NCBI GenBank assembly: GCA_030681515.1 | Contig: JAUXSE010000016.1 | Coordinates: 1 to 64,000 of the forward strand | Direction: 5' to 3' | DNA length: 64,000 nt | From: Geothrix sp. | Lineage (GTDB): Bacteria > Acidobacteriota > Holophagae > Holophagales > Holophagaceae | Shown: in pieces, positions 13,601 to 62,099 of the stretch | Position numbering within the stretch: position 1 is the first letter of the stretch | How the letters are laid out: every line of letters begins with the position of its first letter | Notes under the pieces: generated by a model | Seen by the model: the letters and a program-made list of their open reading frames with translations, nothing else | The model's database searches: none | What the model was told of the DNA's origin: nothing | Position numbers and translations under genes: made by a program

Positions 13601-14202
13601 TCCACGATGAACTGGATGCGGCCGTGATCGAGGCGTACGGCTGGAGTTCCAACCAAGAAAAAGCCAACACCGATGAACACCGAGAAAAGCTGATAAACAC
13701 CGATAGCAGTCCTGAAGATCATTCTTTTATCGGTGTTCATCGGTGTTCATCGGTGGTTAAAGAATCCTTTTCTTCGGTGGCCCTAAGCGATGCCGAGATC
13801 CTGGAGCGCCTTGTGGCCCTGAACCGTGAACGCGCCGAGGAAGAAAAGCGCGGCCTCGTCCGCTGGCTGCGTCCCGAATACCAGGCCCCAGAGAAATCCC
13901 AGCCCATCGCCCAGCCCATGATCAGTGAGATCGAAAGCCCGGCTGATTTGGAATCCGTGGCTCCCCTCGAACCCCAGCCCTGGCCCAAGGATCTCAAGGA
14001 CCAGCTCGCCGCCCTGCGGACGCTGCTGCTTTCCAACGACCGCCTATGGACCCTCGAAGCCGTGGCCGCCGCCTTCAAGAGCCGGGGCCGCTACCGCGAC
14101 GGCATCCAGGCCCAACTTGACCTGCTGGCCGACTTGCGCGTCATCGAGCGCTTAGATGGCCCCCAACCCCGCTGGCACCGGCCCCAGGCCGTGGGTGCGT
14201 AG
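10609..14202 (+). CDS. MmeI-like (type IIL/IIG) bifunctional restriction-methylation enzyme
   Basis: A single-chain enzyme predicted both to methylate and to cut DNA. The start at 10609 gives the conserved N-terminus MPLTVSEFLQRWKGSAGNER. A PD-(D/E)xK nuclease site is D69 with E79-A-K81 (IDLFKAG...LEAKQG). The methyltransferase has DPACGSGNF at residue 393 and NPPF at residue 551 (N6-adenine type). A target-recognition-like region and C-terminal helices follow. The 1197 residues exceed MmeI (919). Part of the excess is two in-frame palindromic repeats (residues about 628-656 and 1018-1053; listed separately), plus a long C-terminal extension. A Phd/ParE pair follows. With no separate specificity subunit seen, it should act alone; whether the repeats permit activity is unknown. 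Confidence 0.88.
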   Translation: MPLTVSEFLQRWKGSAGNERANKDSFLRDFSEALNLPPPEPKDAASAYCFEKDLKITHLDGSTSTGSIDLFKAGCFVLEAKQGSTKAKPGSSPLRGTRAYDQYMERAFGQAVNYAIRLPQRPPFVLTCDIGHAFHVWEGFSGTYGGYGARRTILLDDLFTAENQIYLRALWMDPQSLDPGRRRALVTRQVAGELGDLAKALETRFPAQAVAAFLMRCVFTFFAEDVGLLPEKLFEKALGNWKARPELFVKGLESLWDAMNTGNLWGPDQLLRFNGGLFAEHLALALTADEIALLYRAAHYEWDEVDPSIFGTLLESALSPDERHRLGAHYTPRAYIERLIRPAIEEPLRADWDLVQAEALALLGAEPDEAARAKARAVLHAFRQNLANTTVLDPACGSGNFLYVAYDLLKRLEQEVLSRLSDLGETRQALQLDQVTVTPAHFLGLEIKPWAAAIAELVLWIGHLQWWRRLHPTGSPPEPVLQRYDNIQNRDAVLVWKGARDTGRSRWDGKTFKTHPVTGKAVPDDAAQTAIVELVNPRPAAWPEADFIVGNPPFIGNKRMRDALGDGYAEALRAAYPEVPDSVDFVLYWWHKAAEAVRSGRTRRFGLITTNSLTQTFNRRVIAHHCSVSLTVPHRFSLVKKKRTGEERGGTVRKEKEIPGLKLLWAIPDHPWTDAGAAVRIAMTVGGLEGHPWLGHVIEEHSADTPEAEAEAVKVEGQGVDVIHEDLSAGADVASALPLKANSGLCGQGMKIVGDGFYDHHDLSTSILSPTTGVPVVRTIQNAQDIIQGRPGRKIIDFFGLTETQAMTLHPAAYQQAHDEVLPIRRQNSRASIRDLWWRFAWERPVVRGAIKGLGRYLVTLSVSKHRFFVPIPEEAIWDGALFAIASSDAFHMGVLSSRVHLAWALAAGGRMGVGNDPTWTNSHCFDPFPFPDATEPQKARIRDLAERLDAHRKAAQGRGVTITQMYNLLVKLRSGEAFTPKERDQHAAAQTEILRQLHDELDAAVIEAYGWSSNQEKANTDEHREKLINTDSSPEDHSFIGVHRCSSVVKESFSSVALSDAEILERLVALNRERAEEEKRGLVRWLRPEYQAPEKSQPIAQPMISEIESPADLESVAPLEPQPWPKDLKDQLAALRTLLLSNDRLWTLEAVAAAFKSRGRYRDGIQAQLDLLADLRVIERLDGPQPRWHRPQAVGA
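12491..12574. repeat. In-frame palindromic repeat 1 in the restriction enzyme gene
   Basis: Left arm 12491-12520 and right arm 12541-12574 are inverted imperfect copies built on the words CTCACyGTTC and CTCmCCGTTyCTC (about 21 of 24 bases match over the core). The translated piece is Lys/Arg/Glu-rich and sits between the HH and the WAIPDHPW segments. Relatives of this family, as I recall them, have a much shorter link there. Confidence 0.7.
13661..13765. repeat. In-frame palindromic repeat 2 in the restriction enzyme gene
   Basis: The left arm (13661-13705) and right arm (13727-13765) carry inverted copies of the word CACCGATGAACACCGA. The reading frame continues through it, encoding ANTDEHREKLINTD and GVHRCSSVV. 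It uses a different word from repeat 1 but has the same layout of doubled short words in opposed arms. It adds about 36 residues to the C-terminal part of the enzyme. Confidence 0.72.
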
Positions 14203-15945: not shown

Positions 15946-16538
15946 CAGTCGCTGCCCTCCAGCAGCTGGGTGAGGAAGCTCTCCGCGAAATCGTCGGCCA
16001 GGCTTTCGATGACCTGCAGTTCGCGGCTGTCGAAGCTGGCGAAATTCTGATCCACCCGGTACTGGTTCGAGAAGGTCAGTCCCCGGCGGGAAAGCACCAC
16101 CGCGCCCGTCTGGCCATCCAGCAGCTCCACGCTGGCCACCACCACCACCTCGACGCGGGACGCGGAACCCGCACTGGCCTTCACGCGGTCATTGCCGAGG
16201 GTGAGGCCGATGGGCCGGGACCTGTACTCCTCCAGGGTGCCCTGAAGCACCCAGCGGGAAGGCTCGCCCTGGGCCACGAGCCGCCAGGGGCTGGCCGCCA
16301 CCACGCGGTTTTCGAGGGCCCGGGTGAAGCGGTCCTCCAGCCCCAAACGCGGGGTGAGGTTGCGGAACCGCGCCAGCCGGATCGTCTCCCCCGGCTTGGC
16401 CCAGGCCGCCGCCCGCTGCTGCCGGTCCAGACGGTGGTACCCGCAGCCGGAGGTGAATACCCCCAGCAGAAACAGGACAAAAACCCGGGTCACGGAAGAC
16501 ACGGAACAGGGCAGGAAGACACGGAAAAAGGCCGCCAT
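15945..16538 (-). CDS. lptE: LptE-like LPS-assembly lipoprotein
   Basis: Plug lipoprotein of the outer-membrane LPS translocon LptD/LptE. A hydrophobic stretch (FVLFLLGVFTSGC) ends in a lipobox Cys followed by GYHRL, the LptE hallmark; RLARFRNLTPRLGLEDRFT and GTLEEYRSRPIG are family segments. The start is unusual. From the ATG at 16538, which overlaps the nuclease gene stop as TGATG, residues 3-17 are encoded by the palindromic repeat arm at 16488-16531. A GTG inside the arm (16490, V-T-R-V-F) would give a normal short signal peptide. Which start is used is open. Confidence 0.85.
   Translation of the reverse strand: MAAFFRVFLPCSVSSVTRVFVLFLLGVFTSGCGYHRLDRQQRAAAWAKPGETIRLARFRNLTPRLGLEDRFTRALENRVVAASPWRLVAQGEPSRWVLQGTLEEYRSRPIGLTLGNDRVKASAGSASRVEVVVVASVELLDGQTGAVVLSRRGLTFSNQYRVDQNFASFDSRELQVIESLADDFAESFLTQLLEGSD
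16488..16531 (+). repeat. Left terminal arm of the GxxExxY repeat element
   Basis: This 44-base arm is made of GGTCACGGAAGACACGGAA, a short spacer, and GGAAGACACGGAAAAAGG. Its near-identical inverted partner is at 16939-16981. The arm lies within the first codons of lptE and ends seven bases before the stop of the GxxExxY gene. The same word set recurs at 56258-56344, 58543-58584 and 59013-59054. Confidence 0.85.
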
Positions 16539-16996
16539 CAGAGGACGAAGCGCCGGATGCCGCGATTGGCCATGGGGTAGATTCCGAAGTTAAGAAGAAG
16601 ACCGACTGGTTTATTCGAGAAGCGGAGGTAGCTCAGGATCTGGGCCCTGTGGCTATCCGTGAAGGCCTGAACCACTTTCAATTCTACGACCACCAAATCA
16701 TCCACCAGGAGATCCAGGCGGAAAGCCTGAGGAATCACGAGGCCACGATAGGTCAGGCCGAGTTCGACCTGTCGTTCGACTCGATGCCCTTCCAGGCAAA
16801 GCTCATGGGCCAAGCAGGCTTCATAGGCGGATTCCAACAACCCCGGGCCAAGTGCGCGCTGGACCCGGATCGCGGCGCCAATCACAGCCTCCGTCAATTC
16901 AGCATGGGCACCTCCCGCCCACAAATGTCCTGGAAGGACTTGTTCTGTGTCTTCCCGCTTTTTTCCGTGTATTCCGTGACCAGTTTCTTCATTCAT
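16538..16996 (-). CDS. GxxExxY-family PD-(D/E)xK nuclease-like protein
   Basis: A 152-residue protein of the GxxExxY family (PDDEXK_3). The naming motif is G52-L-L-E55-S-A-Y58, preceded by LTEAVIGAAIRVQRALGPG, and the nuclease-type residues are D95 and E105-L-K107 (FRLDLLVDD...VVVELK). The function of the family is not established. The ATG at 16996 overlaps the hpt stop (ATGA) and the stop overlaps the lptE ATG (TGATG). Residues 6-19 (GHGIHGKKREDTEQ) are encoded by the right inverted arm at 16939-16981, and the stop falls next to the left arm. The gene therefore lies almost exactly inside a 494-bp inverted-repeat element inserted in a housekeeping operon. Confidence 0.9.
   Translation of the reverse strand: MNEETGHGIHGKKREDTEQVLPGHLWAGGAHAELTEAVIGAAIRVQRALGPGLLESAYEACLAHELCLEGHRVERQVELGLTYRGLVIPQAFRLDLLVDDLVVVELKVVQAFTDSHRAQILSYLRFSNKPVGLLLNFGIYPMANRGIRRFVL
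16939..16981 (-). repeat. Right terminal arm of the GxxExxY repeat element
   Basis: On the minus strand this 43-base arm reads GGTCACGGAATACACGGAAA, then AAAGCGGGAAGACACAGAAC. It is the inverted counterpart of 16488-16531, with only a few differences. It is translated as part of the N-terminus of the GxxExxY protein, which explains that protein's odd His/Gly/Lys/Asp start. Confidence 0.85.
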
Positions 16997-56257: not shown

Positions 56258-56344
56258 TGCCCCCGGGATGCAGCCCGTGCCTTTGGAGCGAACGCCCTGT
56301 CTTTTTTCCGTGTCTTCCGGCTTTCTTCCGTGTCTTCCATGACC
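56258..56344 (-). repeat. 87-bp dispersed repeat, copy A
   Basis: On the minus strand it starts GGTCATGGAAGACACGGAAG and ends ATCCCGGGGGCA, with a GCTCC(A/G)AAGGCACGGGCT core. It aligns without gaps to copy B (58543-58629), with about 9 differences in 87. The first half is the same word family as the GxxExxY element arms, and the second half is an extra GC-rich module. It lies upstream of the binding-protein gene. Confidence 0.85.
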
Positions 56345-56397
56345 AGCCAAGCCTCTGCGCTCCTGCTTTCCTTGAAATCCCGGAAGAATCGAGAGAT

Positions 56398-57258
56398 TCA
56401 GCGCTTCCGCGCCACCAGGAGGTACTCCCGGCCCGCGCGGCGCGGGTGGCTTTCCGAAGCCTCGGCCAGGTGCAGCACCTCGAAGCGGGCCTCCGCGAGG
56501 GCGCGCGTCTCCGCCATGGGAATGGCGTGGGGCGGCCCGGGCCGTCCCTTCACATCATGGAAGAGCACCGCCAACCAGAGGCCACCGGACTTCAGGTGCC
56601 CGGCGCAGGCGTCCACATAGGCTGGCCGCCGGGGCGGGTCCATGGCCACCAGGCAGGTGTGATCGAAGATCCCATCCCAGGGGCCTGTCCCTGCCCCCCC
56701 GCGAGCCGCGCTGGGAGCGCCGGGCGGTGGCCCGCAAGGAAGGCGAGGTGAGCATAGTGGTTCTACGCGATCCGAGCTTGACGCAGTGGGGTGCCGCCCG
56801 CCGCCCCAGCCCAGAGGGACGACGCCAGACGGGCGCTCCGCGGCGTCAGGGCCCTTGAACAACGAACCACGTTGCCCTGCGGGCCCTTCCTTCCAGAGCA
56901 TCCCGGCTGGCGTCGTCGCGGCACACGGGGGGGCAGGGACAGGCCCCGAGGGCCCGAGCTGCGTGGTGAACCAGTCCGCCTGGGACCAGGTGACGCGGTT
57001 GCCGTAGCGATGCATGGCGCCCTGGATGGCCAGCGGCGCGAAATCCAGGCCCGTGACGGTGAAGCCCCGGGCCTCCAGGGCCGCCGCATCGTGGCCGTAG
57101 CCGCAGCCCGGAACCACCAGGTCGCCGCCCGGCTTCAGGCCCAGGGGAAGGGCCAGGTCCAGTACCTCGCGCACCAGGGGCGTGGCGCCGTCCATATCCC
57201 AGCCCGGCCGGCCCTCGTCCTCGTAGATGCGGTTCCAGTAGTCGGGGTGGGTGGTCAT
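56398..57258 (-). CDS. TPMT-like SAM methyltransferase with an in-frame 268-bp insertion
   Basis: A 286-residue protein. The core resembles thiopurine-methyltransferase-like enzymes: YWNRIYEDEGRPGWDMDGATP at the N-terminus, VVPGCGYGHDAAALEARGFTVTGLDFAP as SAM site, then WSQADWFTTQ, and after the break WDGIFDHTCLVAMDPPRRPAYVDAC. Residues about 104-193 (SGPVPAP...GAGTGP) are encoded by an inverted-repeat element (56680-56947). They are Gly/Pro/Arg-rich and not family-like; without them the length is about 196, normal for the family. Whether the enzyme still folds is unknown. The start overlaps the YcaQ-like gene by 4 bases. Confidence 0.78.
   Translation of the reverse strand: MTTHPDYWNRIYEDEGRPGWDMDGATPLVREVLDLALPLGLKPGGDLVVPGCGYGHDAAALEARGFTVTGLDFAPLAIQGAMHRYGNRVTWSQADWFTTQLGPSGPVPAPPCAATTPAGMLWKEGPAGQRGSLFKGPDAAERPSGVVPLGWGGGRHPTASSSDRVEPLCSPRLPCGPPPGAPSAARGGAGTGPWDGIFDHTCLVAMDPPRRPAYVDACAGHLKSGGLWLAVLFHDVKGRPGPPHAIPMAETRALAEARFEVLHLAEASESHPRRAGREYLLVARKR
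56680..56947. mobile_element. 268-bp inverted-repeat element inside the methyltransferase gene
   Basis: The ends are 21-bp perfect inverted repeats (56680-56700 and 56927-56947; the left starts GGGGCCTGTCCC). Inside, an 11-bp perfect pair (GACGACGCCAG at 56817 and its inverse at 56907) forms another hairpin. There is no gene of its own. The host reading frame passes through it without a stop in the sense direction. It resembles a MITE-like element, but the word family differs from the ACGGAAGAC repeats. Confidence 0.75.
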
Positions 57259-58448
57259 GGCAGCAGTATGCCGTCGGCGCCCACGAAGGCCGCCAGCCGT
57301 TCCAGGGCCTCATCGAGCCCGCGCTTCCGGGCCCTGGTGGCCTTGATGCCGGGCTCCCACCAGAGGCCCTTGATCTCCAGCAGGCCCCGGTCGCGGTGCA
57401 GCTTGGGATCCAGGCGGCCCACCAGGCGGCCGCCTTCGAGGATGGGCAGCACGAAGTAGCCGTACTGGCGCTTGGGTCCGGGCACGAAGGCCTCGAAACG
57501 GTAGTCGAAGCCGAAGCGGCGGAGGGCGCGAGCCCGGTCGCGCAGGATGGGGTCGAAGGGGCAGAGCAGGCGGGTGCGCTCCGGCGGCTCCGGCAGCTTC
57601 GCCAGCCTGGCCTCCCAGTCCGCCAACGCAAAGGCCGGGCGGACTTCGCCATCGGCGCCTTCCACCTGCACGGGAACGATTCGGCCGGCGCTCACCGCGG
57701 CGGCGCACCAGGCCCTGGCCTCGGTTGCCTCGATGCTGTCCCAGAAATCCGCCAGTTCCTTCGGCGTGAAGACCCCCAACCGCTCGGCGGCGGTGGTGCA
57801 GGCCCATTCCAGATGCTCGGCGGACTCCGGGCAGGGCCGGGCGTGGTGGTCCGGCAGCACGCGCTCCGTGAGGTCGTAGAGCTTCTGGAAACCCTCGCGC
57901 CGGGGGATCATCAGCTCGCCGCTGCGCCAAAGGAAATCCAGGGCCGCCTTCTGCGGTTTCCAGCCCCACCAGGGGCCACGCTTTTCGGGATGCTCGAAGT
58001 CCGAGGATTTCAGCGGACCTTCCTTCGTGATGCGGGCCTTCACATCCTTCACCACCCGCCCGCCCTCTGTCCCGCGGAAGTGATGCTGCCACCAGGCGTG
58101 GGTGTGGATGCGCTCCCGGTCGCGGGCGAAGCGGGGCTTCCAGTGGGGAAACCAGGCCGTGGGGATGGCGGAGGCGTCGTGGGTGAAGCCCTCGAAGAGG
58201 CCGCGCTTATCCTCCAGCAGCCGCTTCAACTGCTCCGGGCGGTAGCCATCCAGGCGGCTGGACAGGGTGAGGTCGTGGGCCCGGGCCAGCACATTGATGG
58301 TGTCCACCTGCACGAACCCCAGCCGCTCGATGAGGGCCTGCAGCGAAGCCGTGGTGGCCCGCCGCGAAGGATCGTCCAGCAGGCCCTGGGCCCCCAGGAA
58401 GAGGCGCTGGGCGGCCACAGCAGTGATCGTAGGAATTGAATCAGCCAC
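57255..58448 (-). CDS. YcaQ/AlkZ-like winged-helix DNA glycosylase
   Basis: A 397-residue member of the DUF1006/HTH_42 family, whose studied members remove bulky alkyl adducts or unhook interstrand crosslinks. LIERLGFVQVDTINVLARAHDLTLSSRLDGYRPEQL at the N-terminus carries the QxDxI-like motif (VQVDTI). GLFEGFTHDASAIPTAWFPHW, then RPAFALADWEARL and LCPFDPILRDRARALRRFGFDYRFE complete the family pattern. It overlaps the methyltransferase by 4 bases and lies just after a repeat-dense zone. Confidence 0.88.
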   Translation of the reverse strand: MADSIPTITAVAAQRLFLGAQGLLDDPSRRATTASLQALIERLGFVQVDTINVLARAHDLTLSSRLDGYRPEQLKRLLEDKRGLFEGFTHDASAIPTAWFPHWKPRFARDRERIHTHAWWQHHFRGTEGGRVVKDVKARITKEGPLKSSDFEHPEKRGPWWGWKPQKAALDFLWRSGELMIPRREGFQKLYDLTERVLPDHHARPCPESAEHLEWACTTAAERLGVFTPKELADFWDSIEATEARAWCAAAVSAGRIVPVQVEGADGEVRPAFALADWEARLAKLPEPPERTRLLCPFDPILRDRARALRRFGFDYRFEAFVPGPKRQYGYFVLPILEGGRLVGRLDPKLHRDRGLLEIKGLWWEPGIKATRARKRGLDEALERLAAFVGADGILLP

Positions 58449-58493
58449 GGATGAACTCGGATGGATCGGTATCTTTTGATTTCAGGGAAAGCA

Positions 58494-58513
58494 GGAACAC
58501 AGAGGACACAGAA
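58494..58513 (+). repeat. Outer arm of the nested repeat (ACAGAGGAC word)
   Basis: The 20 bases beginning GGAACACAGAGG match the inverse of 59106-59127 with a single gap. A second ACAGAGGACACAGAG word follows at 58519-58533. Confidence 0.8.
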
Positions 58514-58542
58514 ATCTCACAGAGGACACAGAGAAAAGCAAT

Positions 58543-58629
58543 GGTCACGGAAGACACGGAAGAAAGCTGGAAGACACGGAAAAGGGAATGGGCGTCCGCT
58601 CCGAAGGCACGGGCTGGATCCCGGGGGCA
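58543..58629 (+). repeat. 87-bp dispersed repeat, copy B (also middle arm of the nest)
   Basis: About 90% identical to copy A (56258-56344). Its first 42 bases also pair with the inverted arm at 59013-59054. It thus belongs both to a dispersed family and to a local palindrome. Confidence 0.85.
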
Positions 58630-58691
58630 CCTGATACCAATTCGCATTCAATCATGAAGGATCCACCACGGAGCCACGGAGCATGGGCCCA

Positions 58692-58745
58692 CGGGAGGCG
58701 CCGGGTCCGGATTCCCCCAGAAGGATCCGGGCCCGGCGCCTCCCG
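58692..58745. repeat. Central hairpin of the nested repeat
   Basis: Arms of 19 bases (58692-58710 and 58727-58745; CGGGAGGCGCCGGG core) pair at 18 positions plus one G-T wobble, with a 16-base loop. Confidence 0.8.
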
Positions 58746-59012
58746 TGACTTCCGGCGCAGCCGGAAGCGGCCTCCGGCCGGCCCATGCACGGAGGTTCAC
58801 TGAGGCCTCCGTGTCGTCTCCGTGAGATCCGTGGCCTCTCGGTATCGGCTACGCCAATACGCGAGACATACTGAAATCTCGTGGTGAATCTCTACCATTG
58901 ACGGCGGACTGGTATGAAACGCGCCTCCTGGGACGCGATCCTGGCGCCCCGGGATAACTTCCGGCCATGCCGGAAGCCGCCTGCGACGGGCCCGCGCGGC
59001 GAGGGCCACGGC

Positions 59013-59054
59013 CCCTTCTGTGTCTTCCCTCGAATTCCGTGTCTTCCGTGACCA
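59013..59054 (-). repeat. Middle right arm of the nested repeat (ACGGAAGAC word)
   Basis: On the minus strand it starts GGTCACGGAAGACACGGAA and continues to GGGAAGACACAGAAGGGG, the inverse partner of 58543-58584 and very close to the arms of the GxxExxY element. Confidence 0.85.
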
Positions 59055-59105
59055 GCCAAGCCTTGGGGATTGGCTGGTAGCCGCTGTGGGACCACAGCAC
59101 GGCCG

Positions 59106-59127
59106 TTCTCTGTGTCCTCTGTGTTCC
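59106..59127 (-). repeat. Outer right arm of the nested repeat
   Basis: The inverse of 58494-58513 (TTCTCTGTGTCCTCTGTG...). It closes the outer layer just 37 bases before the stop of the FadH-like gene. Confidence 0.8.
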
Positions 59128-59163
59128 GCTCTTGATCCCTGAATTTTAGGAGGACCCGACTAT

Positions 59164-61522
<2,359 letters not shown>

Positions 61523-62099
61523 GGGTATCTCCTTTCGGATGGGGCGGGGAGAAAAGCGACATGGATCCTCCGGGGATATCTCAATCTAGGGAAGGCTTCA
61601 GGGCGCGGGGGCGGAAACCGGCGAATGGCTCCCACGAATCGGCGAAGGAACGCGCTGATTGCGAAAAGTGCGATCTGCTTAGCGGCCATACTCCGCTTGA
61701 AAAGCAGGATCCGATTATCGGCATTCCTCAGCCTGACGAGCGGCCTTTAAGATCTCCACGAAGGTCACGAATGAAGAAAAGCCAAGGCCACGAAGGCCGG
61801 CCGCAGCATCTGTCCGCGGGTCATCCGGGCCTTTGGCCCCAGGTCGCGGTGGCGCGACCTGCTTTGGGAGCGGCGGCCAGGGCAGCCCCCGAAAGCGGCC
61901 CTGGCCGCCGCTCCCAAAGGGATGACCGAGGTGGGGACGGGGCCGCTTCGTGACCTTCCTGCGCCCGCAGGGCGTATTCGTGTCCTTCGTGGTGATCTTT
62001 CAAGCTGAGCCAAGCCGACAATCAGGAAGCAGGAAACCACGGAAGCCGCATGAAGGTATATCTCCGTGCCTTCCGCGACCAGCTGGTGGTGCTGGATGG
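61523..62099. other. Gene-free 0.6-kb stretch with a hairpin-only repeat element
   Basis: This holds the leader of the DUF4342 gene, then a repeat element at 61755-61995, then a CCACGGAAGC-type run near 62035-62085 just before the stop of the M14 peptidase gene. A short frame at 62050-62103 (MKVYLRAFRDQLVVLDG) is too small and repeat-derived to call. Confidence 0.6.
61755..61995. repeat. Repeat element with CACGAAGG arms and a perfect 22-bp stem, no gene
   Basis: The left arm (61755-61797) has doubled CACGAAGG/TCACGAA words, and the right arm (61945-61995) is their inverse. Between them are a 7-bp hairpin (61841-61860) and a perfect 22-bp stem (61862-61883 with 61898-61919) with a 14-base loop. 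The arm layout parallels the GxxExxY element, but the interior has hairpins instead of a gene. Confidence 0.8.

Follow-up and report, generated by a model that had tools for sequence, protein, structure and literature searches.

How does a single bacterial intergenic gap come to hold several different palindromes, one inside another? The gap lies in a 64,000-nucleotide stretch of a Geothrix sp. contig (the whole stretch is the window; its genome is G000 below). A sequence-only reading of the window described three concentric layers of repeated words, each pairing with its own inverse, and explained them by stepwise insertion of one palindrome into the loop of another, by related elements that target each other or target hairpins.

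Architecture of the nested locus

The 715-base gap (58449-59163) is flanked by an AlkZ-like gene and an FMN oxidoreductase gene, and the gene-free stretch described earlier makes up most of it. All three word layers were recovered in the inverted-repeat coordinates. From outside to inside the order is D (a left half only, CCACGGATGAAC), O (CACAGAGGACACAGA), M (CACGGAAGACACGG) and C (CACGGAG). The CACAGAGGACACAGA layer had been taken as the outermost; half-layer D, which reaches into the AlkZ frame at its annotated start, lies further out, and the order of the other layers had been read correctly. The features of the locus are:

57255-58448, minus strand: AlkZ-like gene, one flank of the nest
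58440-58473, plus strand: element D, half, left arm and centre of a CCACGGATGAAC palindrome without the right arm (aligned by eye with the complete D palindromes of the orthologous gap in loci L036-L041 and L043)
58488-59130, unstranded: element O (outer), inverted CACAGAGGACACAGA-word arms 58494-58535 and 59106-59127 (inverted-repeat analysis; solo copy at G000:C5:27167-27296)
58540-59056, unstranded: element M (middle), inverted CACGGAAGACACGG-word arms 58542-58581 and 59016-59054, conserved GC-rich hairpins inside (inverted-repeat analysis; solo copies elsewhere; conserved fold)
58632-58634, unstranded: left-hand TGA of the 3-bp target duplication that flanks C
58635-58914, unstranded: element C (inner), 280 bp long with TACC...GGTA ends; contains the CACGGAG arms and, at 58690-58747, the central hairpin (high-copy alone in G010 and G008; removal restores M)
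58915-58917, unstranded: right-hand TGA of the 3-bp target duplication that flanks C
59164-61191, minus strand: FMN oxidoreductase gene, other flank of the nest

The outer arms pair over 19 nt (58494-58512 / 59109-59127) and, in a second copy, over 18 nt (58518-58535 / 59106-59123), and the middle arms over 20 nt (58542-58561 / 59035-59054), all with 100% complementarity; the inner CACGGAG arms (58671-58699 / 58770-58798, 29 nt) are only 76% complementary. These inner arms had been recognised before, but the true ends of their element are wider (58635-58914). The central hairpin is also present, not with the 18/19 bp first given but with 23 nt (58690-58712 / 58725-58747) that are 96% complementary around a 12-nt loop. 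In the folding check that had been proposed, the nest as a single strand folded far better than its shuffles (-210.8 versus -128.1 +/- 6.3 kcal/mol, z = -13.2). Within the window, 13 word matches were observed against 1.05 expected. The nest is a non-random stack of separable elements. An Rfam search of the gap gave no match at the gathering score, and the sub-threshold ones were mostly miRNA models on the hairpin; with all matches below threshold, a known RNA family was ruled out for the nest.

Element C is an insertion

Element C is a later insertion into the hairpin loop of M with a 3-bp (TGA) target duplication. Its ends are TACC...GGTA, TGA stands on either side, and the insertion point is at the stem-loop border. 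When C is removed together with one TGA, the M hairpin is restored as it is found in nine uninterrupted M copies. Among 16 scorable C copies (ends were scored by eye and copies with decayed ends left out), 14 have the same TNA trinucleotide on both sides (seven TGA/TGA, seven TCA/TCA; Fisher p = 0.003). Therefore, a duplicated target fits and an inverted terminal base does not. C occurs alone in many copies in the congeners G010 and G008, and its copies elsewhere adjoin gene ends. The MITE features that were tested, terminal inverted repeats and a target duplication of fixed length, are both found in C. Given the TNA duplications, C may be moved by an ordinary transposase instead of the nuclease considered below.

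Copies of O and M in the genome

The search for single layers that had been suggested was done by BLAST of the gap against its own genome. It found solo O arms at C5:27167-27296 and solo M elements at C59:22558, C30:230846, C1:145012 and C27:14837. The O+M composite was found at about 12 loci of G000 with the same asymmetric internal spacer, where a short gap replaces the 280-bp insert of the window and the C part is missing; these copy numbers are lower bounds from search hits, with 40 of 133 candidates scored. Repeat matches occur in 23 of 24 congeners. Because O+M recurs at so many loci, O and M probably arrived together as one composite, and since the internal spacer can be aligned between copies, this points to a single nesting event that was then copied. 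Recurrence of the layers as one fixed unit at many loci had been named as the observation that speaks against nesting; such recurrence was found for O+M and not for the full nest.

M interiors have a common three-hairpin fold, in which 9 of 54 pairs are kept through changes on both sides. The hairpin order in the interior of C is related to that of M (by eye), and the two share a 71-nt match at 70%; therefore, the relation between M and C may extend further than the words. Several further copies were seen. At G000:C20:151589-151912 (L135), an M element has the outer arms CACAAAGG on both sides, versus CACAGAGG. CACAAAG is present in both outer arms of what looks like the same O+M composite, which suggests that both arms changed together. 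At G000:C54:45414-45679 (L139), a second M element contains part of C, with the junction in a hairpin core common to M and C. In the window, positions 62035-62085 contain what seems to be a minimal M-word unit, a short palindrome of CACGGAAG (ACCACGGAAGCC ... TCCGTGCCTTCCGCGACCAGC), and there is one partial copy:

56258-56354, minus strand: half M element (M-word arm with adjoining core)

Elements with a GxxExxY nuclease gene

At least three repeat types of the gap also form the matching ends of elements with a small nuclease gene, in this or a sister species. For this reason the gap looks like the fossil record of a widespread, little-described mobile DNA. The element of this kind in the window, which the sequence-only reading had overlooked, is:

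16488-16981, unstranded: candidate autonomous M-word element, in which a GxxExxY gene stands between inverted M-word arms (46 nt, 83%); 42 kb from the nest, orthologous site empty in many sister species
16550-16900, minus strand: GxxExxY domain (TIGR04256 / PF13366 PDDEXK_3), predicted minimal PD-(D/E)XK nuclease

Other words bracket further GxxExxY genes in the genus, among them the inner word CACCACGGAG and CCACGGATGCACA, which is close to that of D. Beyond the genus, 77 GxxExxY loci were compared on contigs that by their records come from about a dozen phyla, including one archaeal record with arms; the loci were picked by similarity to the proteins of the genus and are not a random sample of the family. 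Inverted word arms (score >=13, within 200 bp of the gene) accompany 58 of these 77 genes versus 2 of 254 control windows on these contigs, and the other 19 genes have no arms at this threshold. GxxExxY genes with palindromic CACRGA-like arms occur in genomes of many phyla. The arms consist of tandem 8-11-nt words, with the same word on both sides and best self-periods of mostly 8-10 nt, and the arms of the nest have the same tandem-word inverted design. A left arm resembles its own right arm rather than those of other loci (median Jaccard 0.37 versus 0.02). Word similarity rises weakly with protein similarity (rho 0.18, 0/1000 permutations), an increase that common ancestry of arms and gene would give as well. 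Among the loci read, word-matched gene-less palindromes exist for four of the five GxxExxY words in G000. Gene calls and a domain search found no GxxExxY gene inside the nest, which is therefore at most a dependent form.

Phage carriage was rejected, one relative being found among viral contigs. Two further arrangements were observed in G000. At window positions 61755-62000, CACGAAGG words form a palindrome whose central hairpin is 25 nt long (61862-61919), and a matching word makes up the arms around the GxxExxY gene at G000:C11:16516. At L147 (G000:C30:121000-123000), a GxxExxY gene has on each side, in place of a single arm, a complete CCGGTGATGGACGGTGAT palindrome with a hairpin core of its own.

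In 52 GxxExxY proteins D63, E73 and K75 are invariant, which fits a PD-(D/E)XK site. AlphaFold2 modelled the protein with a pLDDT of 96.6, and the best Foldseek match of this model is a Holliday junction resolvase with a weak E-value of 0.04. In the VIA-align ranking the Cas4-like SSO0001 came first (Z 9.3), followed by several archaeal Holliday junction resolvases (Hjc) at Z ~6-7, all middling scores. A sequence search gave no significant solved homologue. The model supports a minimal nuclease of the PD-(D/E)XK fold, for which junction cutting is a matter of structural resemblance.

States of the orthologous junctions in sister species

The orthologous AlkZ gap was searched for in 24 congeners with the AlkZ protein. 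It is repeat-free in L032, L035 and L050-L052, carries one small CCACGGATGAAC palindrome (D), in some cases degraded, in L036-L041 and L043, and shows other arrangements in the remaining loci. In the window the left arm and centre of D are followed by the start of O, and the right arm of D is absent. From these sequences the simplest order at the locus would be D, then O+M, then C. Stepwise insertion stands for C, which entered M cleanly, and is matched by D-only intermediate states in sister species, whereas O+M probably entered as one composite. A palindrome of AACACCGATGAACACCGA words, a further D-like word, is present at window positions 13666-13755.

Two other junctions, with the neighbour genes hpt and murI named by eye, also vary between species. 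At the hpt site, which holds the 16488-16981 element in the window, many congeners are empty. The M-word form is found in G018, a close variant in G010, G020 and G013, and a GxxExxY gene with the O word in G015 and G016; the six readable proteins of this site form one clade with three word types. The murI junction has O palindromes in G000, G018 and G020, CACGGAG palindromes in G008, G019 and G023 and a third word in G016, and is empty in G002, G011, G013 and G014. From these states murI may be either a hot spot or a place where words change in situ. Against the empty orthologous sites, O and M showed no clear target duplication, with the exact ends of O, M and D imprecise. The readable empty sites (murI, hpt, C30:230846 and AlkZ) are short or overlapping gene junctions without a palindrome. 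Therefore, the proposal that the elements target each other or hairpins was not supported. In nesting, another element may be just a harmless landing place.

Origin of the nest

We consider it probable that the gap is a stack of palindromic mobile elements, in which gene-bearing nuclease copies are autonomous and gene-less ones dependent, and we infer mobilisation by the GxxExxY nuclease. Autonomy would belong to the gene-bearing copies, on which gene-less palindromes with the matching word would depend. The nuclease might recognise the iterated words (one per 8-11 bp, about one helical turn) or their cruciform and cut, and the element would then be copied into gene junctions, where it is harmless. 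At this locus D would have come first, the O+M composite would then have entered D with loss of its right arm, and C would have entered M.

Alternatively, the spacers could be fixed at their junctions, with words homogenised by gene conversion or templated repair, so that layer identity shifts without insertion. Different words at the same junction across species (murI, hpt) and the three word types of the single hpt-site clade mean that words may change in place and not arrive by insertion, and the joint alteration of both outer arms in C20 also fits. However, these junctions are repeat-free in many congeners, C was cleanly inserted, and GxxExxY genes come and go together with their arms. We regard this explanation as unlikely. 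The same judgement applies to targeted nesting, in which an element would recognise another's hairpin or words and insert in the loop. It agrees with C at the stem-loop border of the M hairpin, with M between the O arms and with the modelled nuclease fold, which resembles junction resolvases. The readable empty sites have no hairpin, though, C copies elsewhere adjoin gene ends, and M inside O looks like one ancestral event that was copied many times.

That all families are ordinary MITEs, non-autonomous relatives of a DDE transposon, is slightly less credible still. Like MITEs, the elements are gene-less and multicopy with terminal inverted repeats, and C has TIR-like ends and its 3-bp TNA duplication; but no comparable duplication was seen for O, M and D, and the gene bracketed by the words of M and O encodes a nuclease and not a DDE transposase. 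A single complex element, copied whole with all its layers, is improbable. The O+M copies with their shared asymmetric spacer would suit it, yet O, M and C are each found alone, the other O+M copies have no C, and M is restored once C is taken out; a fixed unit is refuted for the full nest and holds only for O+M. REPIN/BIME-type repeats moved by a RAYT (Y1_Tnp, HUH) transposase are likewise palindromic, intergenic, multicopy and hairpin-forming, but this reading is very improbable and was rejected on the absence of Y1_Tnp (PF01797) from G000, the domain being present in 1 of 15 congeners sampled although nearly all congeners carry the repeats, and on the lack of any observed RAYT-repeat linkage compared with the strong GxxExxY-repeat linkage.

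It is tempting to speculate, and we do so tentatively, that these elements belong to a class of mobile DNA that is spread over many bacterial phyla and also occurs in some archaea. In this class a junction-resolvase-like PD-(D/E)XK nuclease and its iterated inverted words would co-evolve, each nuclease moving only elements of its own word. Words could switch in place along with the protein, and the gene-less palindromes scattered over intergenic DNA would be dependents. The GxxExxY protein is named only by its motif, and the tie to the repeats gives the gene a testable role. The same tie offers a source for much unexplained intergenic palindromic DNA, and the nested locus allows relative dating of repeat families. 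A literature search for GxxExxY with repeats and for nested palindromes returned nothing on either.

Comparison with known systems

REPINs, too, are intergenic palindromes that share a genome with a nuclease presumed to be their helper, the RAYT transposase (PMC3116915, PMC8266576). They differ in that the helper proposed here is PD-(D/E)XK and not HUH, the arms are tandem words and this genome has no RAYT. In Geobacter metallireducens (PMC2700814) and G. bemidjiensis (PMC2996986), paired tandem short repeats on opposite strands form several intergenic families, and several multicopy sequences of G. bemidjiensis often share one gap (31% of such gaps; PMC2996986). The repeat descriptions in these papers, by which alone they are likened to the nest, present putative regulator sites or sequences of unknown function and make no link to a nuclease gene (PMC2700814, PMC2996986).

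The intervening sequences (IVS) of 23S rRNA with the S23p four-helix-bundle protein are likewise small elements, in which terminal inverted repeats pair into a long stem around a single short ORF; their mobility is suspected, and they occupy hairpin tips in 23S rRNA (PMC4990558). Their protein family is different, and they sit in helices of rRNA, from which RNase III cuts them out at the RNA level (PMC4990558), whereas GxxExxY elements lie in intergenic DNA. The nest is located between two protein genes and not in a 23S rRNA helix. In the genus, 23S IVP genes (PF05635, four-helix bundle) outside rRNA are bracketed by inverted short tandem-word arms, often of about 7 nt (e.g. TAGCTATCAGCTATC), at L097, L099, L102, L103 and L105, an arrangement that parallels the GxxExxY elements.
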